Origin: Fulvivirga imtechensis AK7
Lineage (GTDB): Bacteria; Bacteroidota; Bacteroidia; Cytophagales; Cyclobacteriaceae
Reading direction: 5' to 3'
DNA: 47,675 nucleotides
NCBI RefSeq assembly: GCF_000331535.1
Contig: NZ_AMZN01000128.1
Span: 1-47,675 of the forward strand
In this document: in pieces, positions 5,638-25,058 of the stretch
Position numbering within the stretch: position 1 is the stretch's first letter
How the letters are laid out: every line of letters begins with the position of its first letter
Made by a program: the position numbers and the translations under genes
The notes under the pieces: generated by a model
What the model saw: only the letters and a program-made list of their open reading frames with translations
Told to the model about the DNA's origin: nothing
The model's database searches: none

Positions 5638-7167
5638 ATGCTCACACCAAAACAACAAAAAGCGGTGCTGATATCAACCATATTGGCATCCAGCATGGCC
5701 TTTATTGATTCTACAGCGCTAAATGTAGCGCTTCCGGCTCTTCAGGAGGATCTGAATATGTCAGGGTCATCGCTATTGTGGGTAGTTAATGGCTATGCGC
5801 TGTTCCTTTCTGCCTTGCTCCTAATTGGAGGGTCGTTAGGCGACCAGTACGGAAGAAAAAGGGTCTTTCTAACCGGAATTACTGTATTCACGATTTCCTC
5901 CGCACTATGTGGTTTATCGACATCTCCCCTGATGCTGATTATCTCAAGGTGTATACAGGGTATTGGAGGGGCATTAATGGTACCAGGGAGTCTTGCCATC
6001 ATCTCAGCGCTTTTTGGTAAAGAAAAAAGAGGATGGGCCATCGGCACATGGTCTATGTTCAGCGCTATGACCACTGTATTTGGTCCGGTGATTGGCGGCT
6101 GGCTTGCCGGGCAAGGCCTGTGGAGGATGGTCTTTTTTATTAATATACCACTTGCCATCATTTCAGCTTTTTTCCTGATCAGAGATGTGCCCGAAACGGA
6201 GAGACTCACACAAAAGAAGCTCGACCTGGCAGGAGCATTACTAGCTATTTTAGCTCTTGGAGGCATTACTTATGGGTTTATCGAAGCCCCGAATTCCGGT
6301 TTTAGCCACCCGACTATACTCATTGCATTAATGGGCGGAGGCATTCTGTTCCTGGCCTTCCTGGCGCACGAACATCAGGCAAAACAACCCATGATGCCCC
6401 TGCCACTATTTCAGTCAAAGGTGTTTACCGGTGCCAATCTTATTACGCTGTTTGTATATGGCGCATTAGGTGGATTTCTCTTTTTCTTTCCTCTTAACCT
6501 CATTCAGGTTCAGGGTTATCCTGCTGAATTGGCAGGACTTACGCTATTGCCTTTTGGATTGCTCATCGCCTTTCTTTCTCGATGGTCTGGGGCGTTAGCG
6601 GACAAAATCGGGACACGCATTCCTCTGATCATAGGCCCGATGTTCACTGCTTCAGGCTTTTTCATTTTTTCATTACCGGGAATCACCGCTGGCCCCTCCT
6701 CCTTCTGGAACACTTTTTTACCCCCTATGCTACTCCTGGGCATAGGGATGGGAATTACTGTTGCCCCACTAACTACGGCTGTTATGAATGCAGTGCCCTA
6801 TGAAAGAACGGGAACAGCTTCCGGAGTGAACAATACCGTAGCCCGTACCGCAGGTGTATTAGCTATCGCTATTATGGGAGCCCTGGGGCTCTTTAGATTT
6901 GAAGAATCGCTCACCTGGAGAATCGCTCACCTGGAGTTAAATAGCACGGCCCTAATGCAGTTAAAAAAAGAAGTAGTAAGGCTGGCTGAGGCCCAGCCCC
7001 CGGAGGCAGCCACAAAGGAGCAACAAAAAGTAGTTGAAAAAGCTATAAAATTTGCATTTATTGATACATTTAAACAATCAGCGCTGATCGCTTCCATACT
7101 TTCGGGAATCAGTGTATTCATTGCTTATTTTACTATACCAGGAAGAAAAAAACAAAAAATAAAATGA
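5638..7167 (+). CDS. MFS drug-efflux transporter, DHA2 (EmrB/QacA) type, 14 TM
   Basis: A 509-residue inner-membrane protein with about 14 hydrophobic helices. The N-terminus carries the DHA2 pattern 'FIDSTALNVALPALQ' in TM1. The loop 2-3 signature 'GGSLGDQYGRKR' and a TM5 motif-C region near 'GPVIGGWLAG' are also seen. These mark proton-coupled multidrug efflux pumps of the DHA2 family. No membrane-fusion partner lies beside it. An exact 16-bp tandem duplication at 6904-6935 lies in the coding sequence before the last helix; the current frame reads through both copies. The substrate cannot be predicted. Confidence 0.92.
   Translation: MLTPKQQKAVLISTILASSMAFIDSTALNVALPALQEDLNMSGSSLLWVVNGYALFLSALLLIGGSLGDQYGRKRVFLTGITVFTISSALCGLSTSPLMLIISRCIQGIGGALMVPGSLAIISALFGKEKRGWAIGTWSMFSAMTTVFGPVIGGWLAGQGLWRMVFFINIPLAIISAFFLIRDVPETERLTQKKLDLAGALLAILALGGITYGFIEAPNSGFSHPTILIALMGGGILFLAFLAHEHQAKQPMMPLPLFQSKVFTGANLITLFVYGALGGFLFFFPLNLIQVQGYPAELAGLTLLPFGLLIAFLSRWSGALADKIGTRIPLIIGPMFTASGFFIFSLPGITAGPSSFWNTFLPPMLLLGIGMGITVAPLTTAVMNAVPYERTGTASGVNNTVARTAGVLAIAIMGALGLFRFEESLTWRIAHLELNSTALMQLKKEVVRLAEAQPPEAATKEQQKVVEKAIKFAFIDTFKQSALIASILSGISVFIAYFTIPGRKKQKIK
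6904..6935 (+). repeat. Exact 16-bp tandem duplication inside the MFS gene
   Basis: GAATCGCTCACCTGGA occurs twice in direct succession. Because 16 is not a multiple of three, the copies are read in different frames. With only one copy the reading frame would meet TAA directly after the repeat and lose the final transmembrane helix. Confidence 0.9.
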
Positions 7168-7476
7168 TCATAGGAAAACCATAGTCATGACAGCGATCGG
7201 GGAAGATCCAGGATAATTAGTGTCTCTAAGAAAACGCCAATGCCTGCGTTACGCTCGCCCCCGAAATGCTCACGTACCTCGGTACGCTCCGCTTTTTGGG
7301 ACTTCGTCCCGCCCTTTGGCGGGAACGTTTCTTAAAGCCACTTAGAGTTTTCTTACAAACACTAATTAGTCGGCAGTTGGCAAAAGGGGTGAGTAATAGA
7401 GGAAAGTCTTCAATGGTGTAATTCGGACTTCCGACTTCGGTCTTCGAGTTAACTCAATACTAAAATATACATATAC
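7168..7476 (+). repeat. Intergenic repeat F, copy 1 (interrupted by a MITE)
   Basis: Excluding the insertion at 7220-7368, this interval closely matches the reverse complement of 22040-22215. Shared landmarks in order are ATGATCATA, GCGATCGGGG, GGATAATTAGTCGGCAGT, GAGTAATAGAGGA, CGGACTTCCGACTTCGG and CTCAATACTAAA. In both places the repeat spans from the stop of one gene to just before the ATG of the next. No coding potential is seen in it. Confidence 0.85.
7220..7362 (+). mobile_element. MITE-like element A, copy 1 (143 bp)
   Basis: Ends are imperfect inverted repeats: left GTGTCTCTAAGAAAAC, right (reverse complement) GTGTTTGTAAGAAAAC. Inside are three hairpins: CGTACC/GGTACG at 7273-7286, GGGACTTCGTCCC at 7298-7310 and CCCGCCCTTTGGCGGG at 7308-7323. 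The last two share CCC and so exclude each other. Flanking direct repeats TAATTA (7214-7219 and 7363-7368) are a target-site duplication; a following G makes 6 or 7 bp possible. The uninterrupted site exists at 22150-22160. Non-coding, so it must be moved in trans if it moves at all. Confidence 0.85.
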
Positions 7477-7944: not shown

Positions 7945-8087
7945 TGCCTCTTAGAAAACGCCAATGCCTGCGTTACGCTTGTCCCAAAAATGCTCTCGTA
8001 CCTCAGTACGCTCAGCTTTCTGGGACTTCGTCCCGCCCTTTGGCGGGAACGTTTTCTTAAAGCCACTTAGAGTTTTCTTACAAACAC
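7944..8087 (+). mobile_element. MITE-like element A, copy 2 (144 bp)
   Basis: Same family and orientation as the element at 7220. It starts GTGCCTCTTAGAAAAC and ends in GTTTTCTTACAAACAC. The hairpins GGGACTTCGTCCC and CCCGCCCTTTGGCGGG are retained, while the GTAC hairpin has one mismatch. Direct repeats GAAGTA at 7938-7943 and 8088-8093 are its target duplication, again followed by G. The remaining sequence to 8302 is AT-rich with one TAnnTTTG box (TACATTTG, 8215-8222) and no other visible feature. Confidence 0.85.
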
Positions 8088-19197: not shown

Positions 19198-19334
19198 AAA
19201 AGAGGCTGTCTCAAAAGTCAATTCGTCATTCCAAACCTGATTTGGAATCCCCTAAAAGTACGTAAGAACTAATGTGGGATCCTGAATCAAGTTCAGGATG
19301 ACGCCAGAAGAAGATTTTTGAGACAGCCTCTTTT
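19198..19334 (+). mobile_element. Long-TIR element B, short copy (137 bp); may also terminate the M16 transcript
   Basis: A perfect 19-bp inverted repeat, AAAAGAGGCTGTCTCAAAA, bounds this element at 19198-19216 and 19316-19334. Inside are two smaller palindromes, ATTCCAAA/TTTGGAAT and ATCCTGAA/TTCAGGAT. It begins 21 nt after the M16 stop, and the right arm ends in a T run, so in RNA it forms a large terminator-like hairpin. Confidence 0.8.
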
Positions 19335-19353
19335 TATTTGAAGGCATAAATGA

Positions 19354-19927: not shown

Positions 19928-20032
19928 AAAAAAAGCAGCCAGACCCCTCTGACTGCTTTTATGGCGTAAACCATTAATCAACCTAAACCTAAAAAATTTA
20001 TTATGAAACCTTTTGGCCGTCTGCCAATAGGA
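19928..20032 (-). ncRNA. Candidate small RNA 1 (about 105 nt)
   Basis: Transcribed on the minus strand from a TATATTTG box (20038-20045). It ends in a strong terminator (19934-19957, AGCAG.CAG/CTG.CTGCT) followed by seven T at 19928-19934. It contains a 27-nt core (19965-19991) identical to candidate RNA 2, whose minus-strand reading includes TAGGTTTAGGTTGATTAATG then GTTTACG. ATGG/CCAT form a small hairpin with the TTTACG loop. An alternative reading as a + strand mRNA leader is possible but less likely, because RNA 2 has no U tract in that direction. Confidence 0.55.
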
Positions 20033-20037
20033 TGATA

Positions 20038-20110
20038 CAAATATAGAGGTCTTTATCCCCTTAAAACATCAGGGTATCCCCGTATTTTTCAATTTAAGCG
20101 TTTCCCTTAC
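20038..20110 (-). promoter_or_regulatory. Promoter region of candidate sRNA 1 with upstream motif
   Basis: On the minus strand the 16-nt motif GTAAGGGAAACGCTTA (20095-20110) lies 49 nt from a -7 box TATATTTG (20038-20045). TGAAAAATACG (20081-20091) lies between them and is shared with the sensor-kinase promoter region. Confidence 0.5.
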
Positions 20111-20680
20111 CCTGTAATTTATGCGGTATTTTTTCCTGAATAATGGAGATTTTCTCAATTCAAGCGGAGAAACCGGTGAAGTATCAGTATAAACCTAAAA
20201 GTATCTTTTGTTGAACTTTGGTTCTGAAACAGCCTTTCTCATTTGTTGTCATCCTTAAAACAGCCTTTCTTTTTCGTCATTCCAGATTGCAGCACAACGG
20301 AGACAAGCAATCTCCTTTGATGTGTGACATCGCACGAGGTCTGACTGCCTCTGTTCAGGAGGATCCTGTATATTTTCTCTGTTGCACTGTGAAAACTTGT
20401 CATTGGTACCGGAGGAAGGAGCTTCCTAAGTTGTGAACAGTACCCTTAAACTTCGTAAGATTCTTCATTCCAGGATGACCAAAAAAAAGGGATGTTTTTC
20501 GTCCGTTTTCTGATATGCATACCTATAACCGATTCTTCTATATCGAACTCACGTCAAAATATTGAGAGATTACTTGCCGAGCACTCCATACCAGCAATAA
20601 ATTTTAAAAAAACTCGTGTTGCCGTTAATATTTACAGTGCCTCCGCAGAAATATTGAGTGATCCGCAACCCACACTCCGG
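20111..20680. other. Gene-free stretch with degenerate repeats
   Basis: No convincing coding sequence. 20230-20480 holds fragments like those in dispersed repeats: AGATTGC/GCAATCT arms around 20284-20313, and 'tcattccaggatgac' near 20466. The rest, roughly 20490-20680, shows nothing I can name. Confidence 0.5.
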
Positions 20681-20688
20681 CATGACAT

Positions 20689-20808
20689 AAAAAAAGCAGC
20701 CAGGACCCCTCCCGGCTGCTACCATGATTAATCGTAAACCATTAATCAACCTAAACCTAGTTTTAATAATCATTTGATGTCGTCAGCACCCGCCATCAAA
20801 ATCGTATT
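20689..20808 (-). ncRNA. Candidate small RNA 2 (about 120 nt)
   Basis: Paralogue of candidate RNA 1. The -7 box is TATGTTTG (20815-20822). The terminator stem AGCAGCC/GGCTGCT (20695-20720) is followed by seven T at 20689-20695. The identical 27-nt core is at 20733-20759. Here GATTAAT/ATTAATC form the hairpin presenting GGTTTACG, whereas RNA 1 uses a different stem for the same loop. Twelve nt including this loop (20729-20740) are complementary to 807-818, just before the T9SS protein start codon. Confidence 0.55.
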
Positions 20809-20814
20809 ATATTA

Positions 20815-20886
20815 CAAACATACAAGCTCGAAATTTTTATATTATAGGCGTTATCACTTATTTTAATAAATACGTGTTTCCCTTAT
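20815..20886 (-). promoter_or_regulatory. Promoter region of candidate sRNA 2 with upstream motif
   Basis: The -7 box TATGTTTG (20815-20822) has the motif ATAAGGGAAACACGTA (20871-20886) 48 nt upstream on the same strand. The motif overlaps the last codons of the pseudo-receiver gene. Confidence 0.5.
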
Positions 20887-21298
20887 ACGCCTCCAGTAGC
20901 TTTGAAACGTAGTTCTCACCATGCAGCAAATAACCAATGGCAACACCTAATTCTTCTTCGAAGGAATGCACCAGCAGATATCCATTTGCTCCTTTGGAAA
21001 GAATATCATTAATAAAGAGTTGCTCGGTATAATGATCCAAAACCAGAACAGGGCAATTCATTTCCTTTTTCATCTTCAGTATCACCTGCAAATAATTCAT
21101 CCCCAGTGAATAGGTATCAACTATAATAAGTGCAGGTTTTTTTACTCTTTGGAGCTGAGGAGAGGCTTCATCCGGAGACATAAAAAAGAAGTCACAGATC
21201 TTCAGGATCTGCTTTGGAATACTTTCAAAAACCTCACTGGAATTACTAAAGAAGGCAACGCGTATCCCCTTTGACTCGTTTAAAAATTCGAATGGCAC
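20858..21298 (-). CDS. Stand-alone pseudo-receiver domain protein (146 aa)
   Basis: The sequence follows a CheY-like receiver, best seen in 'PALIIVDTYSLG' (D61 at the phosphorylation site) and 'GANGYLLVHSFEEELGVAI'. The latter parallels 'GASGYILKSCDENEMKEAI' of the neighbouring response regulator. Key residues are missing: the acidic pair after strand 1 is 'FFSNSS', the switch Thr is Asp in 'VLVLDHY', and the conserved Lys is replaced by Val. It lacks an output domain. It is probably a phosphorylation-independent or modified receiver that interacts with the adjacent system. A TAGATTTG box (21303-21310) lies only 5 nt from the ATG, so the mRNA may be leaderless. Confidence 0.72.
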   Translation of the reverse strand: MPFEFLNESKGIRVAFFSNSSEVFESIPKQILKICDFFFMSPDEASPQLQRVKKPALIIVDTYSLGMNYLQVILKMKKEMNCPVLVLDHYTEQLFINDILSKGANGYLLVHSFEEELGVAIGYLLHGENYVSKLLEAYKGNTYLLK

Positions 21299-21302
21299 GA
21301 AA

Positions 21303-21373
21303 CAAATCTACCAAAGTAGGGCTGCCTGATTATAAGGAATTATGCGTAATTTGACATATAAGGGAAACGCGTA
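21303..21373 (-). promoter_or_regulatory. Promoter region of the pseudo-receiver gene with shared 16-nt motif
   Basis: The -7 box TAGATTTG (21303-21310) lies 47 nt from ATAAGGGAAACGCGTA (21358-21373). The motif is on the + strand here, opposite in orientation to the sRNA promoters but at the same distance. A second GCGTAATTTGACAT segment sits between. Confidence 0.45.
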
Positions 21374-21382
21374 TTCATACCT

Positions 21383-22036
21383 TTAAATGTCTTCGAAAAG
21401 GTTATTTTTTATAGCGTAAAGCACCAACCCTGTTGAGTTTTTAGCTCCTGTTTTCTCCAAAAGGTTTCTTTTGTGAACCTCTACAGTGCGTACACTGATA
21501 AATAGTTTTTCAGCAATTTCCTGATTGGAATCTTCTTCCAATATCAATCTGTAAATCTCCTTCTCCCTTGGGGTTAAAGGGGTGGGAAGGCCATCGCTAC
21601 CTGATTTTGGCTTTTTCTTCGCCAGGTTGTTCATCACAGTCTGCGCCACCTCTTTACTATAATAGATCTCATCACCCAGTATGGCCGCTATAGCTTCTTT
21701 CATCTCATTTTCATCGCAGCTTTTCAAAATATAACCACTAGCCCCCGCATCCATCATCGCTTTTATATGCTGATAATCGTTGTGCATTGTCAGCGCCAGC
21801 ACCCTGATATCTTTCGATATCTTCATAATTCTGCGGGTGGTCTCTATTCCATCAAGACCATCCATATTAATATCTATTATTACCAGGTCTACCCGCTCGT
21901 TTTCCAATATTTTCAAAGCCTCCATACCACTTGAAACCTGATTTACAACCTCATAATCAGGATCATTTTCAAGGTATAATGCCACTCCATCCCGTACCAC
22001 TTTATGATCGTCTACTATTAATATCTTTGATTTCAT
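21383..22036 (-). CDS. NarL/FixJ-family response regulator with LuxR-type HTH
   Basis: 217 residues. The receiver has the acidic pair in 'IVDDH', the phosphoacceptor D55 in 'LVIIDINMDG', the switch Thr in 'VLALTMH' and Lys in 'GYILKS'. The C-terminal LuxR helix-turn-helix is at ~150-215 ('LTPREKEIYRLI', 'NQEIAEKLFISVRTVEVHK'). A cognate partner is the sensor kinase encoded upstream on the same strand, separated by 182 bp holding intergenic repeat F. It is likely a DNA-binding transcription regulator; the 16-nt motifs nearby are candidate targets (inference). Confidence 0.93.
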   Translation of the reverse strand: MKSKILIVDDHKVVRDGVALYLENDPDYEVVNQVSSGMEALKILENERVDLVIIDINMDGLDGIETTRRIMKISKDIRVLALTMHNDYQHIKAMMDAGASGYILKSCDENEMKEAIAAILGDEIYYSKEVAQTVMNNLAKKKPKSGSDGLPTPLTPREKEIYRLILEEDSNQEIAEKLFISVRTVEVHKRNLLEKTGAKNSTGLVLYAIKNNLFEDI

Positions 22037-22218: not shown

Positions 22219-24966
22219 TCATGCAATAGTCACCTTCTGCCGGTAAGGTATCTCTACAATTATTACCGTTCCTTTTCCTTTGCCACTTTCTATCTGCAGG
22301 GTACCTGAAAGCGAATTGACCCGATTAAGCATACTTTTCAATCCAAAGCTGTTGCCCTCATTTATCTTATTGCCTGCATCGAAGCCCACACCGTCATCTT
22401 CAATAGTAAGGATCACCTCTTCATCATACTTCATCAATTGTATGGAAGCGGTTTGTGCTTTCGAATATTTGATAATATTATTTACAGCTTCCTGGGTTAT
22501 CCGGTATAAATGCAGCTCGGTATTTTTAGGCAATCTTTCTTCCTTCAGATTATCGTAAAAATCAAACTTCACCGATGAAACCGTTTCAATATCAGCCAGT
22601 AAACTTTGCACTGACAACACATATCCAAAATCATCGATGCTTTGAGGCATCAGGTTATGAGCAATTTCACGGCTATCTCTAATCGCCTCTTTCAGGTAGT
22701 TAAGCCCTGTGTTAAGTTTTTTGAGTATGCCATTATTAGGCTCTATATCTTTTTTCAGTGAATTGAAATTTAAAGACACAGTAGTCAGTTTTTGCCCAAG
22801 TGTGTCGTGCAGCTCCTTGGCTATTCTGGCCCTTTCATTATCCTCTGTTTCAATTATTGTACTGATGATCTTCTCCTGGGCTAGTCTTCTGTCTGTAATA
22901 TCCATTACGAAGCCTTCAATAATATCTCCTGCAGGTGACATAGCTCTTCCCTGCTCCCATAACCATTTCCTTTCCCCGTTTACATTGACAGGATAAACTA
23001 TCTGAAAAGGCTTATTGGCGGTAATAGCTTCGTTAATGATCTTTATATTTTCTGCGTTGTATTCGTCAGGGATCATATCACTGATCCTCAGATTACCACT
23101 TAAAAATTCATCCGGCGCTATACCGAAAAGCGCCTTACTTCCCTCGCTTACAAACAATGGGGTAAAATCCTTATCAGTCTTACTCCTGTATACCATTCCG
23201 GGAATATTGGCCATCAGGTTAGAAAGTGTTTGCTGGCTTTCTATCAATGCCTGCTCTGTCATCTTAAACTCATGAATATCCACATGGGTACCTATAGCCC
23301 GTACTGCTCTGCCATACTCATCACGGTCTACCACCCGGCCATGTACCAGCAGCCATTTCCATTCCCCGGATTTGGTCTTTAGCCGGTATTCATTTTCATA
23401 GTAGTCTGTTTCGCCTTTTAGGTGGCGGGAAACTCTATCATTTGTCTTTTGGCGGTCATCGGGATGGACCATCTCTATAAAATCTTCAACACGCGGTAAA
23501 ATTTCGCTCACCTCATAACCCAACATGGTAAACTGATAGTCATTTAAATGCAAAGCGCCACTTTTTATATTCCAGTCCCACATGCCTTCACGCGCTCCTT
23601 CAATAGCCATCTGCAGACGTTTTTTACTCTCAGAAAGGGCTTCAAGCATTTTACGCTCCTCTGTGATATTTCTCGACACATAAAGTATGTGCGTACATTT
23701 TCTATTCTTATCAAGGATGGGTATCAGGTTTGATTCAGCAACTCCGCGATTTCCGTCCGGGGTCTTAAAACCTTCTTCATATTTGATAGAATGCTTAGCC
23801 TTGATGGCTTCTGCTATTTTTTGAAACCGGAAGTTGATTTCCGTGTCATCCAGCTTTAGTAGCTTGCGGTATAAATCTTTCAGGCCCATACCCAAAATCT
23901 TATATGCCGGATAATCACTATTTGATCTGTAAAGCTCCTGAAGATACCAGTCCGGTAATTTGGCCACTGAATATGACCCAATTTTCCTTACCTGAAATAA
24001 GGCGATCAGCTCCGAAGCATTATTATAAATAAGTGAGAGTGTTTGCTGCCTTGATTTAATGTTGGCATATGCCCGTTTCAGGTCCGCTGTCCTGGCCCTG
24101 ACCATTCTGCGGAGCACATTCACATATAGCACCAGTTGGATCACAACAAAAAGAATAACCGCCAACAACGCATACCCCCAAACGGGAACTTCAAAAGGTT
24201 TGTTATTGGTAAAATAGTTCTCTATTGAGCTATAATAAATCGATGATTTGTCGGCCTTTAACGCTATCAGGTGATTTTCTACAATAGGCATGACTTTAGC
24301 TGCCAACGGTGTAGCATCACGATATAAAAATGTAAGCCTGAATGGAGAAAATACCACGGGGGTTTGAACAATATCATATTTGTAGTCATGCACATCGCCA
24401 TAAATACGACTTACGATACCGGCATCTACTTTCTTTTTATCGATCAGTTCAAATATTTCTTTATAGTTTTTGGCCTTTACGATGGTACACCTCAGGTCTA
24501 GTTCCTTTATAGAGGCATAGAAGCCCTTATATGGCCCGGTAATAAAATAACTATCCTCCAATACTGCTACCTTTTTCCCTCCAAGATCAAGTAGAGAAGT
24601 GTAATCGGATTCTCTTTTGGCATACACACGAGCCCAGGTTGAAAGTATTCCCACTTTGGCTATCTTGAACTCCGAGCTTCTACCTTTATAATCCCCCGAC
24701 TCTGCTAAAACATCTATTTCTCCTTGCTCCAACAATTGAAAGCACTTTTCCGGGGTTCCCGGCTTATAAATCAGCCGCCAGCCTTCCTTTTCGGCTACGT
24801 ATTTGAGGATGTCAATAAAAATACCCCTGGCCTCACCTCGGGAGTCCATAAAAGCCAGTGGATAATTATCATATACCCCTACGCGTAAAGTCCGTTGGGC
24901 GCTTACAGAAGCCAGCGCCACAATTATTAAAAGGCATGTAAGAAGCAGTTTTCTCATATATGGCAT
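22219..24966 (-). CDS. Sensor histidine kinase: periplasmic SBP domain, TM, PAS repeats, HisKA_3, HATPase
   Basis: The start at 24966 (or 24957) places a signal peptide at the N-terminus; an in-frame ATG at 25017 would bury it. Residues ~25-250 are a family-3 solute-binding domain ('LRVGVYDNYPLAFMDS'). One transmembrane helix follows (~276-300, 'WGYALLAVILFVVIQLVLYV'), then three PAS/PAC units (the second with 'GMWDWNIKSG', 'VHPDD'). A HisKA_3 motif 'RIAKELHDTLGQKL' carries the phosphorylated His. The HATPase_c domain has 'TQEAVNNIIKYSKA' and 'EDDGVGFD'. It probably senses a small amino-acid-like or organic ligand in the periplasm and phosphorylates the NarL-type regulator encoded downstream. 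Confidence 0.93.
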   Translation of the reverse strand: MPYMRKLLLTCLLIIVALASVSAQRTLRVGVYDNYPLAFMDSRGEARGIFIDILKYVAEKEGWRLIYKPGTPEKCFQLLEQGEIDVLAESGDYKGRSSEFKIAKVGILSTWARVYAKRESDYTSLLDLGGKKVAVLEDSYFITGPYKGFYASIKELDLRCTIVKAKNYKEIFELIDKKKVDAGIVSRIYGDVHDYKYDIVQTPVVFSPFRLTFLYRDATPLAAKVMPIVENHLIALKADKSSIYYSSIENYFTNNKPFEVPVWGYALLAVILFVVIQLVLYVNVLRRMVRARTADLKRAYANIKSRQQTLSLIYNNASELIALFQVRKIGSYSVAKLPDWYLQELYRSNSDYPAYKILGMGLKDLYRKLLKLDDTEINFRFQKIAEAIKAKHSIKYEEGFKTPDGNRGVAESNLIPILDKNRKCTHILYVSRNITEERKMLEALSESKKRLQMAIEGAREGMWDWNIKSGALHLNDYQFTMLGYEVSEILPRVEDFIEMVHPDDRQKTNDRVSRHLKGETDYYENEYRLKTKSGEWKWLLVHGRVVDRDEYGRAVRAIGTHVDIHEFKMTEQALIESQQTLSNLMANIPGMVYRSKTDKDFTPLFVSEGSKALFGIAPDEFLSGNLRISDMIPDEYNAENIKIINEAITANKPFQIVYPVNVNGERKWLWEQGRAMSPAGDIIEGFVMDITDRRLAQEKIISTIIETEDNERARIAKELHDTLGQKLTTVSLNFNSLKKDIEPNNGILKKLNTGLNYLKEAIRDSREIAHNLMPQSIDDFGYVLSVQSLLADIETVSSVKFDFYDNLKEERLPKNTELHLYRITQEAVNNIIKYSKAQTASIQLMKYDEEVILTIEDDGVGFDAGNKINEGNSFGLKSMLNRVNSLSGTLQIESGKGKGTVIIVEIPYRQKVTIA

Positions 24967-24987
24967 AGGTTGCCGGCAATTGAATAT

Positions 24988-25058
24988 TAAATCTAACAAA
25001 TTCCCTCCAGAAATCATTTCGTATGGGTACGCAAATCACGTATTTTTCATATTACGTA
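24988..25058 (-). promoter_or_regulatory. Divergent kinase/yfiR-like control region with ACGTA repeats
   Basis: ACGTA elements occur at 25038 and 25054, joined by a segment containing CGTATTTTTCA (25039-25049). The same 11-mer is found upstream of candidate sRNA 1. On the minus strand a near-consensus -7 box TAGATTTA (24988-24995) lies 42 nt further on and 22 nt before the kinase start. Confidence 0.4.

Follow-up and report, generated by a model that had tools for sequence, protein, structure and literature searches.

A tandem pair of paralogous small RNAs beside a two-component operon in Fulvivirga imtechensis, with a predicted seed for exported-enzyme leaders

Small RNA (sRNA) control in Bacteroidota beyond Bacteroides is, to our knowledge, little mapped. 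In the 47,675-nt stretch of Fulvivirga imtechensis AK7 DNA analysed here (contig NZ_AMZN01000128.1; hereafter the window), two short minus-strand units with an identical core lie behind the genes of a sensor kinase and a response regulator. The locus raises the question of whether these units encode RNAs in their own right and, if so, what might switch them on and which messages they might meet.

Results

Two minus-strand units share a core, a promoter box and a terminator

The original prediction of two minus-strand units with an identical 27-nt core was reproduced in its coordinates: the 27-mer CGTAAACCATTAATCAACCTAAACCTA (read on the plus strand) is the same letter for letter at 19965-19991 and 20733-20759, and each unit has an intrinsic terminator and a TAnnTTTG box, which we take to be the Bacteroidota promoter consensus (-7 box). 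The features of the two units are as follows.

20688..20808, minus strand: sRNA unit A, predicted transcript of ~120 nt, start predicted from the box
20733..20759, minus strand: core of unit A, UAGGUUUAGGUUGAUUAAUGGUUUACG, its 5' half largely unpaired in this unit
20695..20720, minus strand: intrinsic terminator of unit A, with an 11-bp stem, a GGGG loop and a U run reaching 20688
20815..20822, minus strand: -7 box of unit A, TATGTTTG (TAnnTTTG), offset -63 from the core
20870..20884, minus strand: upstream motif of unit A, AAGGGAAACACGTAT, starting 62 nt ahead of the box, a putative site for the response regulator
19928..20032, minus strand: sRNA unit B, predicted transcript of ~105 nt, start likewise predicted
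19965..19991, minus strand: core of unit B, the same 27 nt as in unit A
19934..19957, minus strand: intrinsic terminator of unit B, with a GGGG loop and a U run reaching 19928
20038..20045, minus strand: -7 box of unit B, TATATTTG (TAnnTTTG), offset -54 from the core
20094..20108, minus strand: upstream motif of unit B, AAGGGAAACGCTTAA, beginning 63 nt before the box

A consensus terminator scan listed the terminator of unit A and not that of unit B, probably because the stem of the latter uses part of its U run. That the units belong to no named sRNA family, as had been suggested, agrees with a search of the window against Rfam 15, which gave 0 matches at or above the gathering threshold. A relaxed Rfam search of loci L002, L113 and L125 likewise placed nothing on the window units and returned two matches elsewhere, both below gathering (BcKCsr2 on L113, E 0.042; whalefall-1 on L002, E 0.76). 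No paper on this RNA was found in a literature search that left out preprints and most subscription papers; one listed paper names Fulvivirga together with small RNA (PMC12565237). The window also holds further repeated DNA, namely direct and inverted 20-mers (7229-7320 and 7953-8040; 7422 versus 22080) and, by eye, a long inverted repeat, GAGGCTGTCTCAAAA ... TTTTGAGACAGCCTC, behind an M16 peptidase gene (19200-19335).

The units are conserved within the genus

Seven of 15 same-genus genomes carry the 24-nt core exactly, and none of 43 other genomes has it with up to 3 mismatches allowed, so the shared core is not a product of chance. In an 84,980-species collection, from which the window's own genome or one near it may be missing, a 20-mer of the core was found in three records (Fulvivirga marina, F. 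kasyanovii and F. sediminis). When 11 units were aligned, the first 24 nt of the core were letter-identical in 10. Exact cores stand as tandem pairs in the window's own genome (G000) and in G008 and G014; diverged units were seen as a second unit in G001 and as one further unit each in G008 and G014.

A covariance-model search of relatives, which had been proposed as a check, gave strong matches (E < 1e-8) only within the genus; 36 of the 196 genomes of the family, a sample that contained only part of the genus, had a match at E <= 0.1. The 26 weakly matching loci that were read (L021-L046) were rejected as members, being look-alikes composed of AGGTTTAGGTT plus a terminator or chance terminators. 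In other genera of the family, a AGGTTTAGGTT-like stretch lies immediately 5' of terminators at L026, L031, L035, L036, L039, L040 and L044, and the frame preceding it at L036 resembles, by eye, a small heat-shock protein.

Core, box, upstream motif and terminator are conserved jointly, on one strand and at the same operon, in other species, which bears out the proposal of paralogous tandem sRNAs. This remains the supported, best reading of the two units, and the window units are almost certainly genuine small RNAs. Judged from sequence, they belong to a genuine, unnamed multicopy sRNA family, whose mechanism we infer below.

Terminator covariation and strand assignment

Compared with dinucleotide shuffles, the unit B stretch (111 nt) folded with a z of -4.3 on the minus strand and -4.0 on the plus strand, and the unit A stretch (121 nt) with -3.6 and -5.8, respectively. 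Because both strands fold better than shuffles, folding alone cannot assign the strand, and the minus-strand assignment is based on the terminator, the box and conservation.

The stem difference between the units (ATGG/CCAT versus GATTAAT/ATTAATC) had been read as a sign of structural selection, a reading that is not supported: the difference is not compensatory covariation. The GATTAAT/ATTAATC stem is kept in 9 of 11 aligned units, and window unit B and the G001_B unit fold other hairpins. Covariation is clear in the terminator, where 3 of 11 pairs are changed on both sides and 99.2% of the cells in the 11-unit alignment are paired; the loop reads G(G/A)GG in 10 of the 11. In the upper hairpin, from which units B and G001_B deviate, one pair is changed on both sides. 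Over the whole structure, four of five measures lay above nearly all shuffles, and for the fifth (further pair types) 414 of 500 shuffles were equally high.

The converse possibility, that the core occurs only in plus-strand leaders, held in part: its complement does resemble leaders (CAACCTAAACC..ATG) on the plus strand, but an sRNA-strand terminator is present on the minus strand in all 11 aligned units. The leaders that resemble the core complement look like targets.

The adjoining response regulator is a likely driver of the units

Upstream of the units lie the following features.

20858..21298, minus strand: protein of 146 aa, response-regulator-like, unmatched in Pfam at E 0.001
21360..21374, plus strand: further AAGGGAAACGCGTAT motif, in the opposite orientation, upstream of the 146-aa gene
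21383..22036, minus strand: NarL/LuxR-type response regulator (Response_reg and GerE domains), proposed activator
22219..25017, minus strand: sensor kinase (SBP_bac_3, PAS, HisKA_3 and HATPase_c domains)

The 146-aa protein, whose gene holds the upstream motif of unit A within its 3' end, has weak similarity to longer response-regulator-like frames. In all six genomes with a contig spanning the place (G000, G003, G005, G006, G008 and G014), the units lie downstream of a homologous kinase, NarL-type regulator and 146-aa gene, all on one strand. Exactly the seven core-bearing genomes encode a strong orthologue of the 146-aa protein (50-65% identity, E 1e-27 or better), that of G001 being cut by a contig end. 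Weaker homologues (30-36% identity) are found in G009, G012, G002 and G013, where the site behind them showed neither seed nor terminator in the scan used.

The motif AAGGGAAAC(A/G)C(G/T)TA starts 62-63 nt before the TAnnTTTG box in all nine units with sufficient flank, and four further units have variants of it 62-64 nt upstream of the box. The fixed spacing in nine of nine units, together with the adjacency of the operon, makes the neighbouring response regulator the likely driver of the units.

The seed is complementary to leaders of exported enzymes

The seed GGUUUAGGUUG of the core is complementary to the leader motif CAACCUAAACC. Across the seven core-bearing genomes, a search for CAACCTAAACC with an ATG in the next 25 nt returned 77 rows, a figure that includes the sRNA units themselves and nested ATGs, versus 11 in a reversed control. 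We read 58 leader loci (30 + 28), leaving out rows G008:C25:127033 and G008:C61:9907. An ATG-initiated ORF of at least 70 aa within 40 nt of the motif was present in 31 entries, 29 of them distinct, and in 26 of these 29 the ATG stands 7-10 nt past CAACCTAAACC. The 29 ORFs are not independent, as they form 15 blastp homology groups with 9 ORFs in a single M57 group. Many are exported hydrolases, though not all look exported. Pfam domains in 10 of the 29 comprised two M57 peptidases, an astacin, a thermolysin (M4), a PHB-type esterase, a rhamnogalacturonan lyase, a GH43 enzyme, a sortilin-type propeller and a TPR protein, with one ORF lacking a match.

As a less biased test, M57 homologues were collected from all 15 genomes; 50 were found, and 49 leaders were readable after one at a contig edge was dropped. 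Leaders within 1 mismatch of the motif made up 21 of 36 in core-bearing genomes versus 9 of 13 in core-less genomes; being equally common without the sRNA, the leader motif is independent of these RNAs. At G005:3205540, one of the misses, the start was probably chosen wrongly, as an interrupted frame there is preceded by the motif.

In the window's own genome, 5 of 7 M57 leaders lie within 1 mismatch of the motif, compared with 1 of 314 background leaders (ORFs from 400 kb plus the window), a comparison that somewhat favours M57 because background starts were first ATGs and M57 starts were chosen by homology; when later ATGs were also tried, the background count was still 1 of 314. Six background leaders were within two mismatches, five of them exported by a crude rule, and permuted motifs matched the same 314 leaders 0.56 times on average, with a maximum of 3. 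The mean duplex energy of the core with the seven own M57 leaders was -18.0 kcal/mol, and 0 of 500 shuffled cores reached as low a value; two of the seven were equalled in pairing by 16 and 63 of the 314 background leaders. Predicted pairing between seed and leader is mostly 10-12 contiguous nt, and the seed region is mostly single-stranded in unit A, while the core is partly paired in unit B. On balance, these results favour pairing of the seed with the leaders of these exported enzymes. Generic targeting of SusC-like leaders, an early idea, was dropped: the window's own genome has just 24 occurrences of CAACCTAAAC (a count that takes in both window units, against 8 in the reversed control), and several matches lie within ORFs.

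Sister units carry the seed behind other promoters

Downstream of unit A in G003, G005 and G006 is a unit with a 40-aa lipoprotein frame that has the core in its 3' UTR; the frame (YTCPTYSK) lies at L011 ~5950-6080 (minus strand), L012 7500-7620 (plus strand) and L013 4640-4760 (minus strand). Elsewhere in the same three genomes, 15 units have TGGCA-N6-TTG, the -24/-12 form of a sigma54 promoter, 14 nt before GGTTTAGGTTGATT (14 exact, one with one mismatch). These units lie at loci L104, L105, L106, L107 and L108, and some form arrays with units 231-377 bp apart and up to five tandem copies. The window's own genome has three units of this type; one is exact, and the other two carry the variant AGGTTAGGTT.

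G000:C43:90200: sigma54-type unit
G000:C15:3644: sigma54-type unit
G000:C15:31620: sigma54-type unit

The RNA of the sigma54-type units would start with the same seed, GGTTTAGGTTG. With 2 mismatches allowed, the promoter/seed search gave matches in 12 of 15 genomes, and those outside G000, G003, G005 and G006, together with one each in G000 and G006, were judged to be chance. Some of the tandem arrays carry upstream TTCC repeats. Further GGTTTAGGTTGATT stretches, resembling 3' UTR ends, stand 5' of hairpins at L109, L110 and L112 (G008 and G014).

In the eight core-less genomes, AGGTTTAGGTTR gave 33 matches versus 30 in the reversed control, and of 29 read, one (L269, G009) precedes a terminator. 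GGGTTTAGGTT gave 60 versus 55, and among the 41 read, tandem pairs in G009 and G012 and a match in G004 (L304) precede terminators. Thus, among the matches read, seeds stand before terminators in only three of the eight genomes (G009, G012 and G004). The G009/G012 pair is at a separate locus, preceded by a long ORF and one that is lipoprotein-like. Its hairpin-terminator units with the seed lie at L326 4675 and 4891 and at L327 4790 and 5019, where GATAAC-like and GTTATC stretches flank the seed. The M57 leaders of G009 and G012 read CCTAAACCC in four of four cases (counted by eye), which would lengthen the pairing; G013 has the same M57 leaders, yet no tandem seed pair was found there, and the numbers are small.

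Discussion

Taken as a whole, the locus seems best explained by paralogous, trans-acting sRNAs that are driven by a regulator and whose seed pairs with exported-enzyme leaders, an account that we hold with moderate confidence. In this model, the adjoining NarL-type response regulator would bind the AAGGGAAAC..CGTA motif ~75 nt upstream of the transcript start, and binding would turn on both copies of the unit. The seed AGGUUUAGGUUG would then pair with CAACCUAAACC immediately 5' of the start codon in messages of exported enzymes, M57 peptidases foremost, and pairing might block translation, in the way that susC leaders of Bacteroides are blocked by FopS sRNAs. Given pairing, the choice of repression over activation is a guess by analogy, for which we would claim even chances. 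The core past the seed is also invariant, a part that the pairing model leaves unexplained.

The RNAs could be real and act by another route, in which the G-rich tetraloop (GGGG/GAGG) and the hairpin bind a protein, for example an RRM regulator; the leader match would then be a by-product of an element for translation start that certain gene families carry. This agrees with the loop, which reads G(G/A)GG in 10 of the 11 aligned terminators, with the RRM protein encoded in the genome and with the persistence of the leader motif where the sRNA is missing. However, the motif is rare among leaders at large, with 1 of 314 sampled within 1 mismatch, and keeps a narrow distance of 7-10 nt in 26 of 29 ORFs, and we consider this route unlikely. 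Rather less probable still is that the units are a 3' UTR/terminator module of small messages, an RNA without function in trans, with the 40-aa lipoprotein frame retained in some species. The units of G003, G005 and G006 that have this frame with the core in the 3' UTR would fit, as would similar seeds 5' of terminators elsewhere; against it, the core is letter-perfect in 10 of 11 aligned units and, on inspection, no common frame was noticed in A-type units and window unit B.

We give very little credence to the already disfavoured idea that the core is only a tandemly duplicated plus-strand leader whose protein gene has been lost. The plus strand of unit B does read CAACCTAAACC..ATG with a 10-codon frame, and plus-strand folding is as good as that of the minus strand, but sRNA-strand terminators, boxes and the upstream motif are conserved alongside the core in other species. 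We prefer the seed-pairing sRNAs under the response regulator.

More tentatively, one 11-nt seed (GGUUUAGGUUG) may be common to unlike small RNAs, namely the regulator-linked units, the sigma54-type arrays and the 3' UTR-type ends, all of which would converge on exported-enzyme messages with CAACCUAAACC before the start; similarly, the GGGUUUAGG of the G009/G012 pair would match CCUAAACCC leaders. Should the seed indeed be shared, exported enzymes would be subject to one post-transcriptional switch fed by several inputs. The locus also offers a compact, testable system in which a sensor and its response regulator, an operator motif, two RNAs with their seed and candidate target leaders come together.

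The closest known system is FopS/GibS of Bacteroides thetaiotaomicron, in which paralogous sRNAs keep susC translation down and the RRM protein RbpB counters them (PMC11697453). The window's own genome encodes one protein with an RRM, the domain of RbpB. FopS RNAs and the window units are alike in being multicopy paralogous Bacteroidota sRNAs with Bacteroidota-type promoters and a shared seed. FopS RNAs have been shown to pair close to the start codons of messages for surface or exported proteins, and such pairing is predicted for the window units; one FopS member is derived from a 3' UTR (PMC11697453). FopS promoters are of the Bacteroidota housekeeping-sigma type; the TAnnTTTG box, the consensus of that type, is present in nine of nine units with flank. 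In contrast, FopS RNAs are described there as ~65-70 nt long, with 12-15 copies per genome and mostly SusC homologues as targets, whereas the window units are ~105 and 120 nt as predicted from box and terminator, stand in tandem, are tied to one two-component locus and have targets that look like exported hydrolases (PMC11697453). The window family is thus set apart from FopS by description, that is, by length, arrangement and likely regulator.

LhrC of Listeria is likewise a multicopy sRNA driven by a two-component system (LisRK there, proposed here), but it differs in phylum and sequence. The Qrr sRNAs of Vibrio are under sigma54/LuxO control. Qrr RNAs resemble the Fulvivirga family in that several sRNAs have one seed and in the sigma54-type -24/-12 promoters of the sister units; they belong to another phylum and have another seed, and the window units themselves have TAnnTTTG boxes, the sigma54-type units lying elsewhere in the genome. 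Qrr is also named in PMC11697453. Overall, we regard the window family as a multicopy set of probable base-pairing sRNAs under likely two-component control.
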